NCBI GenBank assembly: GCA_001683895.1
Contig: LXQJ01000052.1
Span: forward strand, 17,116 to 81,115
Direction of reading: 5' to 3'
Source: Luteimonas sp. ANT-B3E
GTDB lineage: Bacteria; Pseudomonadota; Gammaproteobacteria; Xanthomonadales; Xanthomonadaceae
Length of the DNA stretch: 64,000 bases
The first letter of the stretch is position 1; each line of letters opens with the position of its first letter. The position numbers and the translations under genes are program-made. The notes below the pieces were generated by a model, which was given only the letters and a program-made list of their open reading frames with translations, was not told the DNA's origin and made no database searches. Positions 2,399-28,354 of this stretch are shown in pieces.

Positions 2399-2467
2399 GG
2401 GGCAGGCCGCGGATTCGTAAGGGAAAGATGGCTTGCAAAGGCCTGCGGGGGATGTTTGACTACGGCC

Positions 2468-4093
2468 ATGCGCGTCCGGGGAATCCAGTTCCAGCAGCTG
2501 CTGCTCGGCCTAGCCCTGGTCGCCGCGCTGCTGTGGAACCTGGCCCAGGCCGGCGAACTCGGCGGCCTGCAGCTGGCGGCGGGCGCCACGGGGACCCGTG
2601 CCGAGCTGAGGCTGGCGACCGAATCCGACTTCAAGGTGATCTCGCTCGCCGGTCCTGACCGGCTGGTGGTCGACCTGCCCGGTGTGACCCTGGCGAAGGG
2701 CTTCCAGCCGCCGGCGGCGGCCGGTCTGGTCAAGGCGGTGCGCAGCGGGCAGCCGGTGCCGGGTACGACCCGGATCGTGTTCGACCTGGCGTCGCCGGTC
2801 GTGGTACTGACTCCGCGCTTCGAGCCTGGTGCCGACGGGCCGCGCCTGGTGCTGGAGTGGCCTGGCGACCATGGGCCCATCGCCGCACCCGCCGTCGCGG
2901 CCAACGCGCCGCTGCCCCCAGTTGCCATCCCGCCGGCTGCGGCAGCGCCCCCCCCGCCGCCCGCGATCGATCCCGCCGCGGCGTCGGCAAGTGCGACCTC
3001 GAAGCTGATCGCCGCGATGCCGCGACCGACGCCGACGCCGACGCCCGCAGCATCGAGCGTTGCTGCCACATCGATGTCCGCGTCGACGGTGAACGCGCCG
3101 TCGTCCGGCAGCGATCCCCGCACCGACGCGACTGGCGCCTCGGCTCCGCCGCCGGCTGCCACCACGGCGCGAATCCCGGTCGCCACCACGATCGCGACCG
3201 GCGTGCCCACCCGCATCGCCACCGGCGTGCCGACGCTGACGCCGGCCGGCGCGGCCCGCGCGCGCGCCGCCGCTGCCGCTGCCGCGGAGTCGCAGCCCGA
3301 TATGCCCGCGGCCGGGAGCACCATGCGGCCCGGCATGCGTCCGCTGGTGATCGCGATCGACGCCGGCCACGGCGGCCAGGACCCCGGTGCCGTCGGCCCG
3401 ACCGGCAAGCGCGAGAAGGACATCACCCTGGCCATTGCGCGCGAACTCGCGCGGCAGATCGACGCCACCCCGGGGCTCAAGTCGTTCCTGACCCGCAGCG
3501 GCGACACCTTCATCCCGCTGGAGCGTCGCGCACAGCTGGCGCGCACCGCCAAGGCGGACATGTTCATCTCCATCCACGCCGACGCCGCACCCAACCGCAA
3601 CGCCAAGGGATCGTCGGTGTACGTGCTGTCGCTGAAGGGCGCCTCGTCGCAGCGCGCGCGCTGGCTCGCCGACAAGGAGAACGCAGCCGACCTGATCGGC
3701 GGTGCGACCATGCAGCGCAGCGACAGCACGCTGACCAACGTGCTGCTCGACCTGACCCAGAGCGGCCGCATGAAGGCCTCCGAGGACGCCGGCAACCACA
3801 TCCTGTCCGGCCTCAAGCGCATCGGCAACAACCACAAGCCGCACATCGAGCGCGCCAACTTCGCGGTGCTGCGCACGTCCGACATGCCGGCGATGCTGGT
3901 CGAGACCGCGTTCCTGTCGAACGCCGAGGAAGAGCAGCGGCTGATCGACCCGGTGTTCCAGCGCACGGTCGCGCGCGCGGTGCTCGATGGCGTCAACACC
4001 TACTTCACCAGCCAGCCGCCGCCGGGCACGCTGTTCGCGGCGCGCGCCGCGGGGGGGCAGGGCGCGTCGTCCGCGTCGGGTGGCAGCCCCTGA
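2468..4093 (+). CDS. amiC: N-acetylmuramoyl-L-alanine amidase, AmiC type
   Basis: This periplasmic zinc amidase cuts the bond between N-acetylmuramic acid and the stem peptide and acts in daughter-cell separation. From ATG 2468 the product is 541 residues: signal peptide 1-28 (cleavage near AQA/GE), AMIN domain about 32-132 that directs it to septal wall, a long Pro/Ala/Thr linker about 135-285 with PTPTPTP and two ATGVPT repeats, then Amidase_3 from about 291. Zinc and catalytic residues are visible as H301 (DAGHGG), E316 (KREKD), H370 (SIHAD) and E479 (LVETAFLSN). An in-frame TTG at 2456 would add four residues. The linker is long for the family. mutL follows directly. Confidence 0.93.
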
Positions 4094-20814: not shown

Positions 20815-22398
20815 TCAGCGGCGGCCGCTGAGGCCGCCGAAGAGGCCGCGCAGGATCTGCCGGCCGATCTGGCTGCCGACGGTGCGCGCGGTCTGCTTAG
20901 CCATGGTCTCGACCATGCCCTGGCGGCGCCCGGTGCCGAACATCGCGTCCTTGACCGATTTGCCGAAGCCGCCCCCGGTCGCCTCGTCGTCGCCACGCGT
21001 GCGCGCCCTGGGCGCCTGTACCTGCTCCGCGGCGGCTTCGGCCTTGCGTGCGAGCATCTCGAATGCCGATTCACGATCGACCCGCGTGTCGTACTTGCCG
21101 CCGACCGGGCTGGCGGCGCGCACCTGCGCGCGCTCGGCGGCGGTGATCGCGCCCATGCGGCAGCGCGGCGGCGCCACCAGCGTGCGCTCCACCGGCATCG
21201 GCACGCCGCGCGGGCCGCCGGGCACGTCGCGCAGCAGCGACACCAGCGCCTCGCCGGTGCCGAGCTGGGAGATGGTGGCGGCGACGTCCAGCGCCGGATT
21301 TGCGACGAAGGTGCCGGCCGCGGTGCGCACCGCCTTCTGGTCGCGCGGGGTATAGGCCCGCAGCGCGTGCTGCACGCGGTTGCCGAGCTGGCCAAGGATC
21401 TCGTCGGGCACGTCGTCGGGGAACTGCGAGCAGAAGTACACGCCCACGCCCTTGGAGCGGATGATCCGCACCACCTGCTCGACCCGCTGGCGCAGCGCCG
21501 GCGGCGCGTCGTCGAACAGCAGGTGCGCCTCGTCGAACAAAAACACCAGCCGCGGCCGGTCGAGGTCGCCGACCTCCGGCAGGCTCTCGAACAGCTCCGA
21601 CAGCAGCCACAGCAGGAAACTCGCGTACAGCCGCGGCTTCAGGACCAGGCGGTCGGCGGCGAGGATGCCGACCACGCCGCGGCCCTGCGGCGTGGTGCGC
21701 ATCAGGTCCGCCAGCTCCAGCGCCGGTTCGCCGAAGATGGCGTCGCCGCCGTCGGCCTCCAGCCGCAGCAGCGCGCGCTGGATCGCGCCGACCGACTGCA
21801 CGCTGACCAGCCCGTGGCTGGTCGAGATCTCGCGCCGCTCCTCCGCCACCAGCCCCAGCAGCGCGCGCAGGTCCGGCAGGTCGAGCAGCAGCAGGCCGCG
21901 CTCGTCGGCAAGCTTGAACACGATGTCGAGCACCCCTGACTGGGTGTCGTTGAGCTCGAGGATCCGCGACAGCAGCAGCGGGCCCATCTCGCTGACCGTG
22001 GTGCGCACCGGATGGCCGTCGCGGCCGAACAGGTCCCAGAACACCACCGGCGAGGCCTCCGGCAGCCAGTCGTCGATGCCGATCTCGGCGATGCGCTGGT
22101 CCAGCCGCTCGCCGTGCGTGCCGGCGACGGCGAGCCCGGAGACGTCGCCCTTGACGTCGGCGATGAACACCGGCACCCCGATGCGCGAGAAGCCCTCGGC
22201 CAGCGTCATCAGGGTGACCGTCTTGCCGGTACCGGTGGCGCCCGCTACCAGCCCATGGCGGTTGCCGTAGCACGCCAGCAGGCTGACGTTGGTGGTGCTG
22301 GTGGCGTCGACGGACGCGGCACCCGGGGCGGCCGCGGGGTGGCCGCCGCCGGAGGGGGCCACGGCGGTGACGGCCTTGCCGACGAGGATCGAATCCAT
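20815..22398 (-). CDS. HerA-like ATPase, DUF853 family
   Basis: A predicted cytoplasmic P-loop ATPase of 527 residues. Walker A is [12 protein letters not shown] (51-62) and Walker [16 protein letters not shown] (283-297). Between them are [11 protein letters not shown] and [16 protein letters not shown], typical of DUF853 (YjgR) members of the FtsK-HerA superfamily. The C-terminal part has an amphipathic helix region and a Gly/Arg end ([16 protein letters not shown]). The physiological role of DUF853 is not known. ATG 22398 is chosen because TGGGAG lies 7 bp upstream; the frame stays open to 22632, with ATG 22470 as another option. greB follows. It is not next to a NurA nuclease gene, so a NurA-HerA system is not supported. 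Confidence 0.87.
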
Positions 22399-22570
22399 GG
22401 GTACTCCCAGCGCGTTGGCCAGCCGGGATTCTACGGCCGCCGCGGCGCCGCGCCGGGTGGTTGGCGCCATCGCGATGGCCTTCCGCCGGTCCGCGGCGGC
22501 GTACGCAGCGCCTTGCCGGTGCCGGGTGTGGCCGCTACCGTGGTCGGCCCCTCGCGATCCCCACGCCTCC

Positions 22571-24151
22571 ATGCCCCTCGTCCCGCAGCCACGCCGTCGC
22601 CCAGGCCACCATCGCGCGTTCGCCCGCGCCACCGTCGCCGCGCTTGCGCTGGCCCTGCTGCTGCCAGCGACCGCCGGCGCGCAGTCGCGCCGCGACCGCG
22701 ATGCCGCCGATGCGCTGGTGGCGCGGATGGGCGCCGCCGAGGCGCGCTACCGTGAGGCGCTGGTCAAGGTCGGCAACGCCGACCCGTCAGGCGTGGCAGA
22801 GAGCAACGCGGCGCTGGAGGACATGGAGGACGTGCTGGTCGCATGCCCCAGGCAGCGCGGCTGCAACATCTCCCAGCTGCTGCCGACCTACAAGCGGCTG
22901 CTGAAGGCCCAGACCGATGCCGGCGCCGGCATGGACGGCGACGATACCGACGCCACCCTGGTCGACGACGGCCTCGACCTGCCGCCCGGCGGGCTTCCCG
23001 ACGCGGCCAGCGCGGCGGCGCTGCTGAGCGCCGACGGCCGGCGCTTCGTGGAGATGGTGCAGCTGAATCCCGCGGTACAGGAGGGCATCCGCCGCTGGCT
23101 GACCGATACCCGCGTGTCGCTGATCACCAGCCACGAGAACTACCAGTACATGCGCCATCTGATGTCGCCGGCGTTCGAGCGCAGCGGTCTGCCGGAAGCG
23201 CTGCTGTTCGGGATCATGGCCAAGGAGTCGACCGGACGCGTGCACGTCGGCTCGCGCGCCGGCGCGGTCGGGCCGATGCAGTTCATGCCCGCGACCGGGC
23301 GCCGCTTCGGCCTTGGCCCGGACGGCACCGGCTTCGATACCCGCTACGACCCCCAGGCATCGGCCGATGCCGCCGCCCGCTACCTCAACGAGCGCTACGC
23401 CGAGTTCGGCAACGACATCGAGATGTGGCTGGCGGCCTACAACGGCGGCGAAGGACGCGCGATGCGCATCCACCGCGGCGCCGGCGGCCGCAAGTTCTGG
23501 GATCCCACCGTCTACGAGCAGTTCCCGGCCGAGACCCGGGATTACGTGCCGATGGTGATCGCCGCGGCCTGGCTGTACCTGCATCCGCGCGAGTACGGGC
23601 TGGTGTTCCCGAAGGTCGACGCGCGCCCGGCGACGTTCCAGCTGGCGCGCCCGGCATCGATCTACGAGCTGACGATCTGCCTCGGCAACGGCGGCACCCG
23701 CGACGGCTACATGCGTGCGCTGCGCAACCTCAACCCGCGCTACGAGGCCGACCAGGTCATCGCCGCCGGCACCACGGTCAACGGCACAGTGCGCATGGCC
23801 AGCCTGTACGGCCGCTGGTGCACCCGCGGCGAGCGCGCGGACCTCGCTCGCCAGCTGGTCGGCAGCGGCGCGCGGCAGGCGGTCGTCACCACCGGCGCGC
23901 TGGAGGTGCTGCCGCCGGTGTCGAGGTACGTGCCCGGCGCCGGCGCGGTGCCGACGACGGTCGCCACCGGCGTGCCGGCGATAGTCGGCGAGCCGCGCGA
24001 GCACCGCGTGGCCCGCGGCGAGACGCTGGTGGCGATCGCCAGTCTCTACCAATGCGATACCGCGGTGCTGGCGCGCGCCAATGGGCTGCAGGCACCGCGT
24101 TACGCGCTGCGCCAGGGGCAGCGGCTGAAGCTGGAGGGATGCACCCGCTGA
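22571..24151 (+). CDS. MltD-like lytic transglycosylase with C-terminal LysM
   Basis: A 526-residue exported murein hydrolase. The signal peptide ends TAGA/QS near 37. The SLT (goose-lysozyme-like) domain spans about 200-330 with catalytic E219 in GIMAKESTGRVHVGSRAG, followed by AVGPMQFMPATGRRFG and AAYNGGEGRAMRIH. A central region (YVPMVIAAAWLYLHP) precedes one LysM at about 477-526 (HRVARGETLVAIASLYQCDT). MltD of E. coli has two or more LysM motifs; one is seen here. I find no lipobox, so it is likely soluble in the periplasm. ATG 22571 gives a normal signal peptide. It is divergent from the HerA-like gene. Confidence 0.9.
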   Translation: MPLVPQPRRRPGHHRAFARATVAALALALLLPATAGAQSRRDRDAADALVARMGAAEARYREALVKVGNADPSGVAESNAALEDMEDVLVACPRQRGCNISQLLPTYKRLLKAQTDAGAGMDGDDTDATLVDDGLDLPPGGLPDAASAAALLSADGRRFVEMVQLNPAVQEGIRRWLTDTRVSLITSHENYQYMRHLMSPAFERSGLPEALLFGIMAKESTGRVHVGSRAGAVGPMQFMPATGRRFGLGPDGTGFDTRYDPQASADAAARYLNERYAEFGNDIEMWLAAYNGGEGRAMRIHRGAGGRKFWDPTVYEQFPAETRDYVPMVIAAAWLYLHPREYGLVFPKVDARPATFQLARPASIYELTICLGNGGTRDGYMRALRNLNPRYEADQVIAAGTTVNGTVRMASLYGRWCTRGERADLARQLVGSGARQAVVTTGALEVLPPVSRYVPGAGAVPTTVATGVPAIVGEPREHRVARGETLVAIASLYQCDTAVLARANGLQAPRYALRQGQRLKLEGCTR

Positions 24152-24167: not shown

Positions 24168-24980
24168 TCAGCGCGGATCAGGAGCGGGGCGAAACGCCGC
24201 GGCGGGGGGGCTTCCGCCGCCGGGCACGCAGTCGGCGACATGGCGCTCCGCGCGCAGTCCCTCGGCGCTGCGCATGATGACCGCCGCGCCCACGCTGCGT
24301 TCGCCGACCGGGTTGTCGCACGCGTCCAGCCGGACCTGCACAAACTGCTGCAGCACTTCCATTTGCCCGCCGGCCAGGGACACCACGTCGAGACCCTCCC
24401 AGGACTGGCCCATCCGGTAGCCGGAGGTGGCCAGCAGCAGGTCGTCGAGGCCGTCGCCGTCAGCGTCGACCACCCCCGGCAGCGCCTGGTAGCGCACGTC
24501 GGGAACGAACTGCGCCGCCACCTTGTCGCCGTCGACCACCGCCAGCATTGGCGGCGCTGGCGCGGGGCCGACACCGTCGCCGCGCACCAGCAGCACCGCC
24601 GACTGCGCACGGCCGGGAACGGTAAACACTCCCGCGTGGGCGGCAACGATGCGCACGTCCGCAGGCGCGTCGTCGCCATAGACCGCGGCCACCGTGCGCG
24701 CGGCGAGCGCAGCATCCACCACCTGCGGCGACGGCGGCTGGCGCAGGTCGAGCACCACGGCTTCCTGCGCCGCTCGGTCCTGGGGCGACGCGGCACCGTG
24801 CGCCCCGGCCGGTGTTGCGCGGGTGGCGGTGGGAGCCGGCGAGGCCGCTGCTGCGGTCCGCGCGCCGGGCACGTCGGTCGCACCGCAGCCGCCCAGCCAC
24901 AGCAGGCAGGTGGCAACCGGGAGTGCGTGCCACGCCTGTCGCAGCGCGATCGACTGCAAACCGGAAAGGATCTGGCGCAC
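24168..24980 (-). CDS. Putative lipoprotein with a calcium-binding-like DxDGDG motif, unknown function
   Basis: I do not recognise a family. The 270-residue product begins with a basic, then hydrophobic, stretch ending LGGC (C32), a likely lipobox, so it is probably an envelope lipoprotein. An Ala/Pro/Thr linker (about 38-72) follows. The folded part has VDADGDGLDDLLLATSGYR, which resembles a single FG-GAP/VCBS-type repeat or calcium loop. Three cysteines remain, one near the C-terminus in VADCVPGGGSPP. GTG 24980 is preceded by GAGGAG, which decides the start, although the frame is open to 25136. The gene is on the same strand as, and 152 bp after, the LysM multi-domain protein, so they may act together at the wall. 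Confidence 0.7.
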   Translation of the reverse strand: MRQILSGLQSIALRQAWHALPVATCLLWLGGCGATDVPGARTAAAASPAPTATRATPAGAHGAASPQDRAAQEAVVLDLRQPPSPQVVDAALAARTVAAVYGDDAPADVRIVAAHAGVFTVPGRAQSAVLLVRGDGVGPAPAPPMLAVVDGDKVAAQFVPDVRYQALPGVVDADGDGLDDLLLATSGYRMGQSWEGLDVVSLAGGQMEVLQQFVQVRLDACDNPVGERSVGAAVIMRSAEGLRAERHVADCVPGGGSPPAAAFRPAPDPR

Positions 24981-25132: not shown

Positions 25133-27361
25133 TCATCGGCTGGTCGTCAGGAGATTGGGCGAGATAAAGATCCGTCCCCCGTCGACGTTGATCCAGGTCA
25201 GGAAGTCGACGTGGTCGCCGGTGCTGCCGCCGGTGCTGCCCTGGTCGCCGATGTCCTGGCCGGCGCTGAAGCGATCGCCCTCCCGCACCGTGAAGCCGTC
25301 AGCGTGGGCGTAATGGGCGTACACCGGATACTCGCGACCCTGGTAGCTGTAAGTGAGGTCGGTGCGGGTGATGATGTAGTTGCCATAGCCGCCGGGATCG
25401 CTGCGGATCGATTCCACCGTGCCGTCGAACCAGGACTGGATGCGGCCGTTGGTCGTCACGTAGTCGATGCCGAGGTTGTAGACGCCGGCGGGCACCCGCT
25501 GCGCGACCCCGGGATTGTCGGAATAGATCGCCAATGCCTCGCGCTTGCTGCTGTGCGGACCGCCGCGGGCCATGAATCCCTCGGTCAGAATGAACTCGCC
25601 GATCACCGGCGAGCTGATGGTCTGCCGGCCCGGCGTGCTGCGCTCGTGCACGGGCTGGCTGAGCTGCAGGTCGGCGCCGGGGCGGTCCGGCGCCGCCAGC
25701 GCCGCAAAGGTCGTTGCACCGAGGATCCCGGTGGTCGCGATCCCGGCTTCGGCCTGGAACGCGCGCAGCGCGTCCCTGGTCGCTGTGCCGAATCGACCGG
25801 CCTCGGCGGCGGCATCGCCGGCGCCCAGCAGCCCGCGGTCGACCAGCTGCGCCTGCAGGCCGCGGACGACGTCGGCATTCGGGTTGCGGTCGACGCCGAC
25901 GCCACCCTCGACCGCTGACATCGCGGCGCGTGTGGCGTTATCGAAAGCGCCGCTGGGCGACAGGCCGGCGAGCGACTGAAACGCGCGCACTGCGCCTTCG
26001 GTCGCTGGACCGAAGCTGCCGCGGCCGGCGGCGACCGTCGCCGGGGCGATCAGCCCGAAGCCCGTGAGCGAATCCTGCAGGCGGGCCACGGCATCGCCAC
26101 GGTCGCCCCTGGCCAGTGCCTCGGTGGGCAGGCCTGTACCGGGCGGGGGTGCTGGCGGCGCTGGCGGTGCGGTGGGCGCTGTTCCGGACAGCGCGGCGCC
26201 GGTGGCGGCGTCGAGCAGCCCGGACGCCGGTAGCCCGTTCGCCTGCTGGAAGGCCGCGACCGCGGACGCGGTGTTGCGTCCAAACTCGCCGTCGACGAAA
26301 CCCTGGCGCTGCGCGTCGGGCACCGCACCGGCGTCGACCAGCCGCTGTTGGACCGCCGACACGCCGCCATACAGGCGCGCGGCCACGGCCTGCGTGGCCT
26401 CGCCCGCGGTGATGCGGCCGTCGCGGTTGAAGTCGAGTCCCGAGTTCTGCGTGTACTCCACGTTGCCGGCGACGAAGTCGCGGCCCGACGGCGTGCGCAG
26501 GGTCGCACCGGGATCGGGCGTCGCGCGGCCCGAGAGCACCGAAGTGTAGACGCCCTCCAGGGTTCCGAGGCTACCCGGATACTGCGCGAAGTAGCTCTCG
26601 ACGTACGTCAGCTGCTCGACCGACGACATCTGCGCCAGCGCCGCGGTGGTGGTGCCGAGTCCGCGCGCGGTCGCCGGCATGAACTGGATCAGCCCGGTGG
26701 CGCCGGAACCGGCCAGATTGGCCTGTGCCGGATTGAAGGTGCCGCCGGTCTCGAAGCTCATCACCGCGAGTACGTATTGGGGCTGGGTCCCAAGCCTGCC
26801 GGCCATGGCTTCGACCTCTGCCAGGAAGGCCGGAGTCACGTTGGGGTTGCCGCGGACGCCGACGATCGCGTCGTAGCCGATACCCGGGGCACCCGCGGCC
26901 GGTGGCGTGGGTGACGGCGCGGGACCGGTGCTGCCGTCGACCGGGGCGTTGCCGGCCGGTGGCGATCCCGGCGTGCTTCCAACCGGCGCGCCGGGCGGCG
27001 GACCATTCTGCGACGGAACCGTCAACCGATCGCCTGGAAAAATCAGGTCGGGGTTGCGCAGGTCGTTGGCCGTGGCGATCGCCGACACCGTGCTGCCGTA
27101 CTCGCGGGAGATCGCGCCCAAGGTGTCGCCCGCGCGAACGACGTGGGTGCGGCTGGCGCCGTCGGGAATCGTGATGGCGTCGCCGACGTAGATCCGGTCG
27201 GGATGTCGCACCTGCGGGTTGGCCTGGAGCAGCGCGTCGACGCTGACGCCGTATCGCGCGGCGAGCTGGCCGAGGGTGTCGCCGTGCGCGACCACGTGGG
27301 CGTCGGCCACGCGCGGCGGCGGCAGGGAGGAGGCGCTGCGAAGGGACTGGACATTGGTCAT
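25133..27361 (-). CDS. Multi-domain wall protein: 2 LysM, transglycosylase-like, EF-hand, 3 PG-binding, degenerate M23
   Basis: A 742-residue mosaic. LysM repeats lie at about 22-66 and 73-116; a Pro/Gly linker follows; a lysozyme/SLT-like domain at about 175-300 has a candidate catalytic E204 (VMSFETGGTFN) and GATGLIQFMPATARGLG. A full EF-hand loop lies at 310-321 (DFNRDGRITAGE). Three PG_binding_1-type repeats follow at about 327-393, 413-484 and 495-556, and an M23 (LytM)-like domain at 585-740. The usual zinc ligands appear replaced: the H of HxGID is N629 and the second H of HxH is D719; D633, H683 and H717 remain. No signal peptide, lipobox or XVIPCD-like tail is seen. ATG 27361 is the natural start. 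The export route is unknown. Confidence 0.85.
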   Translation of the reverse strand: MTNVQSLRSASSLPPPRVADAHVVAHGDTLGQLAARYGVSVDALLQANPQVRHPDRIYVGDAITIPDGASRTHVVRAGDTLGAISREYGSTVSAIATANDLRNPDLIFPGDRLTVPSQNGPPPGAPVGSTPGSPPAGNAPVDGSTGPAPSPTPPAAGAPGIGYDAIVGVRGNPNVTPAFLAEVEAMAGRLGTQPQYVLAVMSFETGGTFNPAQANLAGSGATGLIQFMPATARGLGTTTAALAQMSSVEQLTYVESYFAQYPGSLGTLEGVYTSVLSGRATPDPGATLRTPSGRDFVAGNVEYTQNSGLDFNRDGRITAGEATQAVAARLYGGVSAVQQRLVDAGAVPDAQRQGFVDGEFGRNTASAVAAFQQANGLPASGLLDAATGAALSGTAPTAPPAPPAPPPGTGLPTEALARGDRGDAVARLQDSLTGFGLIAPATVAAGRGSFGPATEGAVRAFQSLAGLSPSGAFDNATRAAMSAVEGGVGVDRNPNADVVRGLQAQLVDRGLLGAGDAAAEAGRFGTATRDALRAFQAEAGIATTGILGATTFAALAAPDRPGADLQLSQPVHERSTPGRQTISSPVIGEFILTEGFMARGGPHSSKREALAIYSDNPGVAQRVPAGVYNLGIDYVTTNGRIQSWFDGTVESIRSDPGGYGNYIITRTDLTYSYQGREYPVYAHYAHADGFTVREGDRFSAGQDIGDQGSTGGSTGDHVDFLTWINVDGGRIFISPNLLTTSR

Positions 27362-27478: not shown

Positions 27479-28354
27479 TCAAGCCGGACGGGCGGGTGCC
27501 AGCAGCCGCGCCAGCCGCTGGCCCAGGCGCACCGCGACCTCGGGTCCCAGATCGGGATCGAGCGTCGCCACGCCGGCAGGCAGCAGCACGATCACGGTGG
27601 AGCCGTAATTGAAGCGCGCCATTTCCTCGAAGCGGTCCAGCGCGATGTCCTCGCCGCGGTAGTCCTTGACCGTGACCGTCTCGCCGTAGGCGGGGATCTC
27701 CTCGCCGCTCCACACCGTCTCCACGCCCGACACCAGCAGTGCGCCGACCATCACCACCGCCATCGGTCCGAAACCGGTGTCGAAGTGGCAGACCAGGCGC
27801 TCGTTGCGCGCGAACAGCCCCTGCACCCCGGTGACCGCATCCGGCCCGACGCTGAACAGCCTTCCGGGCACATGGACCGTCTTGCGCAGGCGTCCCGCCC
27901 ACGGCATGTGCACGCGGTGGTAGTCCTTCGGCGACAGGTAGACGGTGGCGAACACGCCGCCAGCGAAGGCCTCGGCGGCATCGTCGTCGCCGAGCAGGGC
28001 GCCGGCGGTGAACGACCGCCCCTTGGCCTGGAAGATGCGCAGGCTGCCGTCATCATCGCGGGCGATCACGCCGCACTGGCTGACGCGGCCGTCGGCGGGC
28101 ATCACCAGGGTCTCCGGATCGGCGTCCGGCGTGCGCACGCCGGGACGCAGCGCGCGTGTGAAGAAGGCGTTGAACGTCGCATACGCCGCCGGGTCGGACT
28201 GCGCCGCTTCCGACAGGTCGACGCCGAAGCGCGCGACCACGGTATCGACCAGCCAGCGCCGCAGGCGCGGGTGGTCGGAATAGGCCAGCCGCCGCGCCAC
28301 TGACGACAGCAGCCGGTGCGGCAGCACGTGGGTCAGCGCGGTGACCAGGGTCAT
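27479..28354 (-). CDS. psd: Phosphatidylserine decarboxylase proenzyme
   Basis: Psd converts phosphatidylserine to phosphatidylethanolamine at the inner membrane. The proenzyme of 291 residues cleaves itself between G251 and S252 ([11 protein letters not shown]), and the serine becomes the pyruvoyl group. The autocleavage triad is visible as D88 (MPADGRVS), H146/H149 (DYHRVHMP) and S252. The usual LGST appears here as YGST, a known variant in some proteobacteria. ATG 28354 overlaps the stop of the SCO gene by 4 nt (ATGA), so psd is translated from the SCO transcript. Confidence 0.95.

Follow-up and report, generated by a model that had tools for sequence, protein, structure and literature searches.

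The gene at positions 25133..27361 (minus strand) raises the question of how a protein that appears equipped to bind and to cut peptidoglycan reaches a cell wall without a recognisable export signal, and whether this wall is the producer's own or that of a rival. It lies in the window, i.e. the whole stretch of 64,000 nucleotides that was analysed, and according to its open reading frame, the Pfam matches and the hydropathy it encodes a signal-less protein of 742 amino acids with LysM, SLT/EF-hand, PG-binding and M23 modules.

Modules, transglycosylase core and export signal

The open reading frame, the length of 742 residues and the coordinates had been given correctly by an earlier sequence-only reading of this DNA, and the two LysM domains, three PG-binding repeats and M23-like domain that it had proposed are borne out by Pfam. 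All features of the protein lie on the minus strand. LysM 1 comprises residues 24-66 (27164..27292) and LysM 2 residues 73-116 (27014..27145), while PG-binding repeat 1 was located at residues 333-391 (26189..26365) and repeats 2 and 3 at about residues 412-557 (25691..26128); the three PG_binding_1 and two LysM matches score above the cut-offs. The Peptidase_M23 profile reached 47.2 bits (cut-off 28.7), and the core of the M23-fold domain was assigned to residues 624-725 (25187..25492) by Pfam and by comparison of a structural model with lysostaphin. According to the alignment columns its metal site consists of N629 (25475..25477) at the position of the first zinc-ligand His of the Hx3D motif, the conserved zinc-ligand Asp D633 (25463..25465), and D719 (25205..25207) at the position of the second His of the HxH motif; this combination is referred to below as N/D/D. 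The proteins of the two closest relatives, Luteimonas salinisoli (G041) and Luteimonas endophytica (G027), each share 74% identity with the window protein over the aligned residues and contain PG-binding repeat 1, and repeats 2 and 3 are missing from both. A scan for promoters and terminators detected none, and none were expected beyond chance.

The SLT profile of Pfam was matched only partially, with 19.8 bits and thus below the cut-off of 21.3. Judged by its sequence relatives, the SLT core is real despite this score. Residues of about 171-325, including the EF-hand region, resemble the solved chain 9udh_A, a 'lytic transglycosidase' (E 1.4e-29), for which no describing paper was found, and the SLT region without the EF-hand resembles the phage internal protein 9k2v_E (E 3.8e-13). 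The core also matches the phage families phrog_4928 and phrog_196 'baseplate hub', and core plus EF-hand match 225 phage records, with at least 80% of the query covered in 212. On the basis of 9udh_A and the phage records, the phage-type lytic transglycosylase core with EF-hand was placed at residues 156-333 (26363..26896).

The initial search for family members gave 80 loci, most of which matched only the PG-binding or LysM repeats and were left out. The family as counted here comprises 16 LysM-bearing members, or 19 if the core-only prophage-type proteins of G046, G200 and G421 are included. E204 (26750..26752), the candidate catalytic Glu, and the EF-hand loop (residues 310-321, DFNRDGRITAGE, 26399..26434) are present in all 19, three of which are the core-only proteins. 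The EF-hand thus belongs to the transglycosylase subfamily and does not represent a separate module. The transglycosylase-like domain, candidate Glu and EF-hand loop named in the sequence-only reading are therefore backed by 9udh_A as well as by this conservation. The dN/dS of the SLT/EF part is 0.19 against L. salinisoli and 0.20 against L. endophytica.

Short core-only SLT/EF-hand proteins were seen in three genomes of the order (L134:6575-7480, L181:4579-5097 and L182:5056-5616), and the surroundings of the first of these look like a prophage lysis cassette. PseM, a T6SS muramidase, was considered as kin and rejected, since EF-hand, calcium, SLT and lipoprotein go unmentioned in the available part of its description (PMC12494544).

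The previous suggestion that a Sec signal, a lipobox and an XVIPCD-type tail are all lacking, which had made export a real question, was upheld. A hydropathy scan, used instead of SignalP, revealed no hydrophobic N-terminus, neither from the ATG nor from in-frame upstream codons: the best 12-residue mean was 0.91 in the first 60 residues and 0.50 in the upstream extension, compared to 1.82-2.62 in the references (two lipoproteins and one Sec-type protein). An upstream start would thus not add a signal peptide. Furthermore, the proteins of L. salinisoli and L. endophytica begin at the equivalent Met (MTEVQ and MTNVQ). Hydropathy was computed for seven of the 16 members including the window protein, the other nine being assessed by eye, and the six relatives gave values of 0.52-1.43 in the same test, with the maximum in G026 at residues 42-53. 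The protein contains no Cys, no lipobox was found, and the XVIPCD profile PF20410 gave no match up to an E-value of 1.

Lipoprotein partner, type III secretion loci and export routes

Directly behind the gene lies a lipoprotein gene (24168..24980, minus strand) which is a candidate guard. It starts with a GTG at 24980, preceded by GAGGAG at a distance of six bases, WLGGC precedes the mature part, and the codon of the mature Cys is at 24887-24885. Its open frame extends to 25136, overlapping the stop codon of the 742-aa protein. An adjacent lipoprotein partner, as looked for in an X-Tfe, is therefore present, and by analogy a protective role may be proposed for it. Homologues follow the gene in L. 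salinisoli, L. endophytica and G026 with 47, 50 and 35% identity, respectively, so that the lipoprotein evolves faster than the 742-aa protein. According to a crude gene-calling script a lipoprotein gene lies downstream in all 14 M23-bearing members, which are not independent of each other, and the same script called none behind the two members without M23 (G037 and G264). The C-terminus of these two appears cysteine-peptidase-like by eye, and Pfam gave no match there. The partner lipoprotein of the ten M23 members linked to a type III secretion system (T3SS) is from another family.

The guard reading has evidence against it. No clear structural match emerged for the lipoprotein model: Foldseek returned none at an E-value of 0.001 or better, and VIA-align only beta-propeller-type entries tied near Z 10, which speaks neither for nor against a lysozyme-inhibitor fold. 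Moreover, the lipoprotein families A and C share only a 16-column DxDGDG stretch (hhalign probability 9.5%).

Two lipoprotein genes stand behind the homologue in G026 (L126:4265-5616), the member with a complete M23 site, and one in the N/D/D genomes. The upstream neighbour of the window gene is a phosphatidylserine decarboxylase gene (27479..28354, minus strand), in the same order in both closest relatives. Two genes off, a convergent gene (22289-24151, plus strand) encodes a Sec-type SLT and LysM protein; L. salinisoli and L. endophytica likewise have such a gene beside their homologues.

Eleven of the 16 LysM-bearing members are located on loci with sct genes, across several genera and two families, although these counts are not independent, several members being close relatives. 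In ten of the 16 the frame lies 28-246 bp behind sctP on the same strand; G264, a member from another family, lies 3.4 kb behind sctP. The remaining five (the window gene in its source genome G000, and those of G041, G027, G026 and G037) are unlinked to a T3SS cluster, and all five genomes encode SctN elsewhere. In the source genome SctN (88% identical, G000:C4:2951-4276) is part of a cluster in G000:C4:1-20000; the place downstream of sctP holds no such wall-cutter gene in it, and the content of the cluster makes no T3SS cargo evident. Since SctN (82-100% identity) was detected in 45 of the 52 genus genomes, its presence alone is weak evidence. A tree of the SLT core places the unlinked copies of G000, G041, G027 and G026 together (91/95), apart from most of the T3SS-linked ones; we do not claim any direction of transfer, since the phage branches are very long and strong support is limited to two of the 17 inner branches.

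The search for secretion machines was confined to T3SS (SctN), T6SS (VipB) and T4SS (VirB4). VipB was detected in 15 of the 52 genus genomes, including G027, G041 and G026, and was not found in G000. VirB4 was detected in 30 and was not found in G000, G027 or G041. Thus, only the T3SS marker is present in all three N/D/D genomes; as the genome of G000 is 89% complete, its missing T6SS and T4SS markers are no proof of absence. XVIPCD occurs in 19 of the 52 genomes including G000, where one of the three matches lies in a 527-aa frame and two lie in 95-aa frames (C42:22910-23239, C54:3952-4146 and C6:17133-17327).

Taken together, we tentatively favour, at somewhat less than even chances, a peptidoglycan-cutting cargo with a lipoprotein guard, the cargo being exported by a specialised machine, of which the T3SS is the most likely. 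We infer the enzymatic activity, the export route, the guard function and the target, a rival's or the own wall. The cargo would be made without a Sec signal, so that the general route would not bring it to the producer's wall, and would leave through a machine for which the T3SS is favoured because relatives are located in a T3SS operon. The LysM and PG-binding repeats would anchor it on peptidoglycan, the phage-type transglycosylase with EF-hand would cleave the glycan strands, and the M23 domain, lacking the usual zinc ligands and retained by selection, may act in docking or regulation or employ another metal. The lipoprotein in the envelope would shield the producer should the cargo enter its own periplasm. 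Against this reading, five members including the window gene lie outside T3SS clusters, and against the preference for the T3SS, two of the three N/D/D genomes carry VipB.

The strongest alternative, which we nevertheless regard as rather unlikely, is an effector-like cutter that leaves via a T6SS, a T4SS overlooked because the genome is incomplete, vesicles, lysis or periplasmic leak, with the lipoprotein as immunity protein. It would agree with VipB in G027 and G041, with the XVIPCD matches of G000, though VirB4 was not found there, and with the lysozyme-like cargo XAC2609, which according to the available part of PMC10933484 has no detectable signal peptide and enters the producer's periplasm independently of its T4SS and of XVIPCD. 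However, the 742-aa protein itself has no XVIPCD, neither VipB nor VirB4 was found in G000, and VirB4 was not found in G027 or G041 either.

Next in rank, and likewise unlikely, is an enzyme of machine assembly, exported by the T3SS into the own periplasm and opening the wall for the apparatus like FlgJ, the damage being limited by the lipoprotein. The position immediately behind sctP in ten members would fit, and wall enzymes linked to T3SS (EtgA, IagB, HpaH) and flagella (FlgJ) offer precedents in the parts available of PMC11834469 and PMC6403190. Furthermore, a signal-less protein with M23 and SLT/EF-hand is encoded beside a DotA/TraY-family gene on the Acinetobacter plasmid NZ_CP091598.1 (MPF_I, L183:3618-5453), indicating that such enzymes accompany another machine too; its M23 motifs are canonical by eye in the one record read. 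The SLT/EF core matches 76 Acinetobacter plasmid records. On the other hand, 33 of the 45 SctN-positive genus genomes have no SLT/EF match at E 1e-15 among the matches listed (scoring was limited to 21 candidates per genome), and in one further genome the matches listed include only a prophage-type one, so that the T3SS does not depend on the wall cutter. The window copy is unlinked to the T3SS cluster, and the many binding repeats and the lipoprotein partner would presumably be unusual for such a role.

The preferred cargo and guard reading has a wider bearing. For the Xanthomonas X-T4SS, wall enzymes that lack a signal and are paired with a lipoprotein are established, and relatives inside T3SS genes hint at an exit route for the signal-less window protein. 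If the T3SS link is true, injectisomes would either secrete wall cutters of their own or serve as armament against bacteria. In the open-licence texts that were retrieved, titles and the beginnings of abstracts contained no signal-less wall enzyme with lipoprotein partner or antibacterial T3SS of this kind.

The M23 domain and its metal site

The replacement of two of the three expected zinc ligands (N629 and D719), as claimed before, was confirmed. The Hx3D motif and the second His of HxH are absent, and D633 is retained together with H686 and H717, the two water-activating His. The source genome encodes nine M23 domains above the Pfam threshold. Of the other eight, the canonical set is complete in five and the first His is shifted in one (HAVD, L167); the remaining two are degenerate, the first being NlpD-like (K, D, H, M, H) and the second EnvC-like (S, L, H, G, Y). 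Among the 14 M23-bearing family members three are N/D/D, ten T3SS-linked ones have Leu in the first column, and only G026 has the full set, which makes an incomplete first motif the rule. The ten T3SS-linked members retain HxH (L128:6308-6745, L180:7377-8840 and other loci) and share a conserved HHDY upstream of the usual first-His position, which, going by the alignment, might replace the first zinc ligand.

The N/D/D domain was detected in three of the 52 genus genomes (G000, G041 and G027), in two of 398 sampled genomes of the order (G000 and G027) and, among 398 sampled genomes of the phylum, in G000 only (E 1e-10). A phage or plasmid origin of this domain was rejected, as phage and plasmid records gave zero matches at E 1e-5. 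A scan of viral_contigs returned eight weak M23 relatives with the single sequence and none with the alignment.

The whole M23 part shows a dN/dS of 0.22 against L. salinisoli and 0.18 against L. endophytica, which indicates purifying selection and maintenance of the domain. Its core (residues 625-725; 0.26 and 0.22) is under slightly weaker constraint than the SLT core. How an M23 domain loses zinc ligands and yet stays under selection is the question posed by the conserved N/D/D site.

An AlphaFold2 model of residues 566-742 has a mean pLDDT of 75.4, with block means of at least 89 for model residues 71-160. It aligned with lysostaphin (4qpb; Z 15.3, rmsd 2.4, 126 aligned residues), DipM (Z 14.8, rmsd 2.6, 124), LytM (Z 14.3, rmsd 2.7, 123) and EnvC (Z 13.6, rmsd 2.7, 120). 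The metal site is not reliably modelled, since the pLDDT falls below 50 at residues 597-606, which hold H603, and at 625-629, which hold N629.

The domain could still be a metal-dependent peptidase that employs other ligands, e.g. H603, D633 and D719, or another metal at N/D/D, a reading we consider improbable. It would be in line with the retained D633, H686 and H717, with residues 572-624 as the most constrained stretch (dN/dS 0.13 against L. salinisoli and 0.11 against L. endophytica), and with H603, N629 and D719 being invariant in the three N/D/D sequences. However, these three sequences are 82-83% identical, so that invariance is weak evidence, and the low pLDDT concerns exactly the surroundings of H603 and residues 625-629.

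A bolder extension of the cargo and guard reading, to which we assign a still smaller chance, would be that injectisomes of the Luteimonas/Lysobacter type serve as weapons against other bacteria, equipped with wall-cutting toxins and their lipoprotein immunity partners, and that the window pair is a cassette which departed from the operon and had its M23 site rewritten to N/D/D.

The sequence-only reading had proposed an EnvC/NlpD-like role, and the AMIN amidase it had reported is indeed encoded in the window (AMIN and Amidase_3, 2456-4093). Of this comparison the degenerate M23 site stood, and export by Sec or a lipobox did not, given the missing hydrophobic N-terminus and Cys. That the protein activates this amidase is highly improbable: degenerate M23 folds often work through protein contacts according to the available part of PMC9662197, and the model matches EnvC and DipM about as well as active enzymes, but the source genome encodes an NlpD-like and an EnvC-like protein separately (named by eye; the former with a lipobox-like start and LysM and M23 by Pfam, the latter truncated by the contig start), whose different pattern of loss includes M or G in place of the H717 retained in the window protein, the signal peptide expected of EnvC/NlpD relatives is lacking, and the N/D/D domain is restricted to the few genus and order genomes given above. 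The lipoprotein frame overlapping the stop codon, which the sequence-only reading had left unmentioned, and the T3SS-linked relatives, which were not visible to it, argue for a cargo and guard pair instead.

Comparison with known systems

The window pair resembles X-Tfe/X-Tfi pairs in its anatomy. Like XAC2609/XAC2610, it would combine a signal-less peptidoglycan cutter with a co-encoded lipoprotein (PMC10933484, PMC6536674). As far as the available parts of these papers describe it, XAC2610 is a lipoprotein that prevents self-damage by XAC2609 (PMC10933484), M23 and SLT domains occur among X-Tfes, and where a cargo acts on the wall, its cognate X-Tfi is nearly always a lipoprotein (PMC6536674). 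However, the window protein has other catalytic domains, and because XVIPCD is missing it is not an X-Tfe; VirB4 was found in none of the three N/D/D genomes, and the relatives are linked to T3SS instead.

With the LytM/M23 peptidases and the degenerate EnvC, NlpD and DipM the protein shares the fold and, with the latter, an altered active site. It differs from them by N629 and D719 together with the retained D633, H686 and H717, by the lack of an export signal and, compared to LytM factors, by the fusion of its M23 domain to an intact-looking transglycosylase.

EtgA and IagB have a Sec signal, and FlgJ is exported by the flagellar machine without one. The window protein's relatives are, like EtgA, IagB, HpaH and FlgJ, encoded alongside a type III export machine, whereas the window protein itself is multi-modular and lipoprotein-paired and its gene is unlinked.

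The phage-type SLT/EF-hand transglycosylases (9udh, phrog_196 and phrog_4928) have the core sequence, the catalytic Glu and the EF-hand loop in common with the window protein. In contrast to these enzymes, the window protein is chromosomally encoded, fused to LysM, PG-binding and M23 modules and paired with a lipoprotein.
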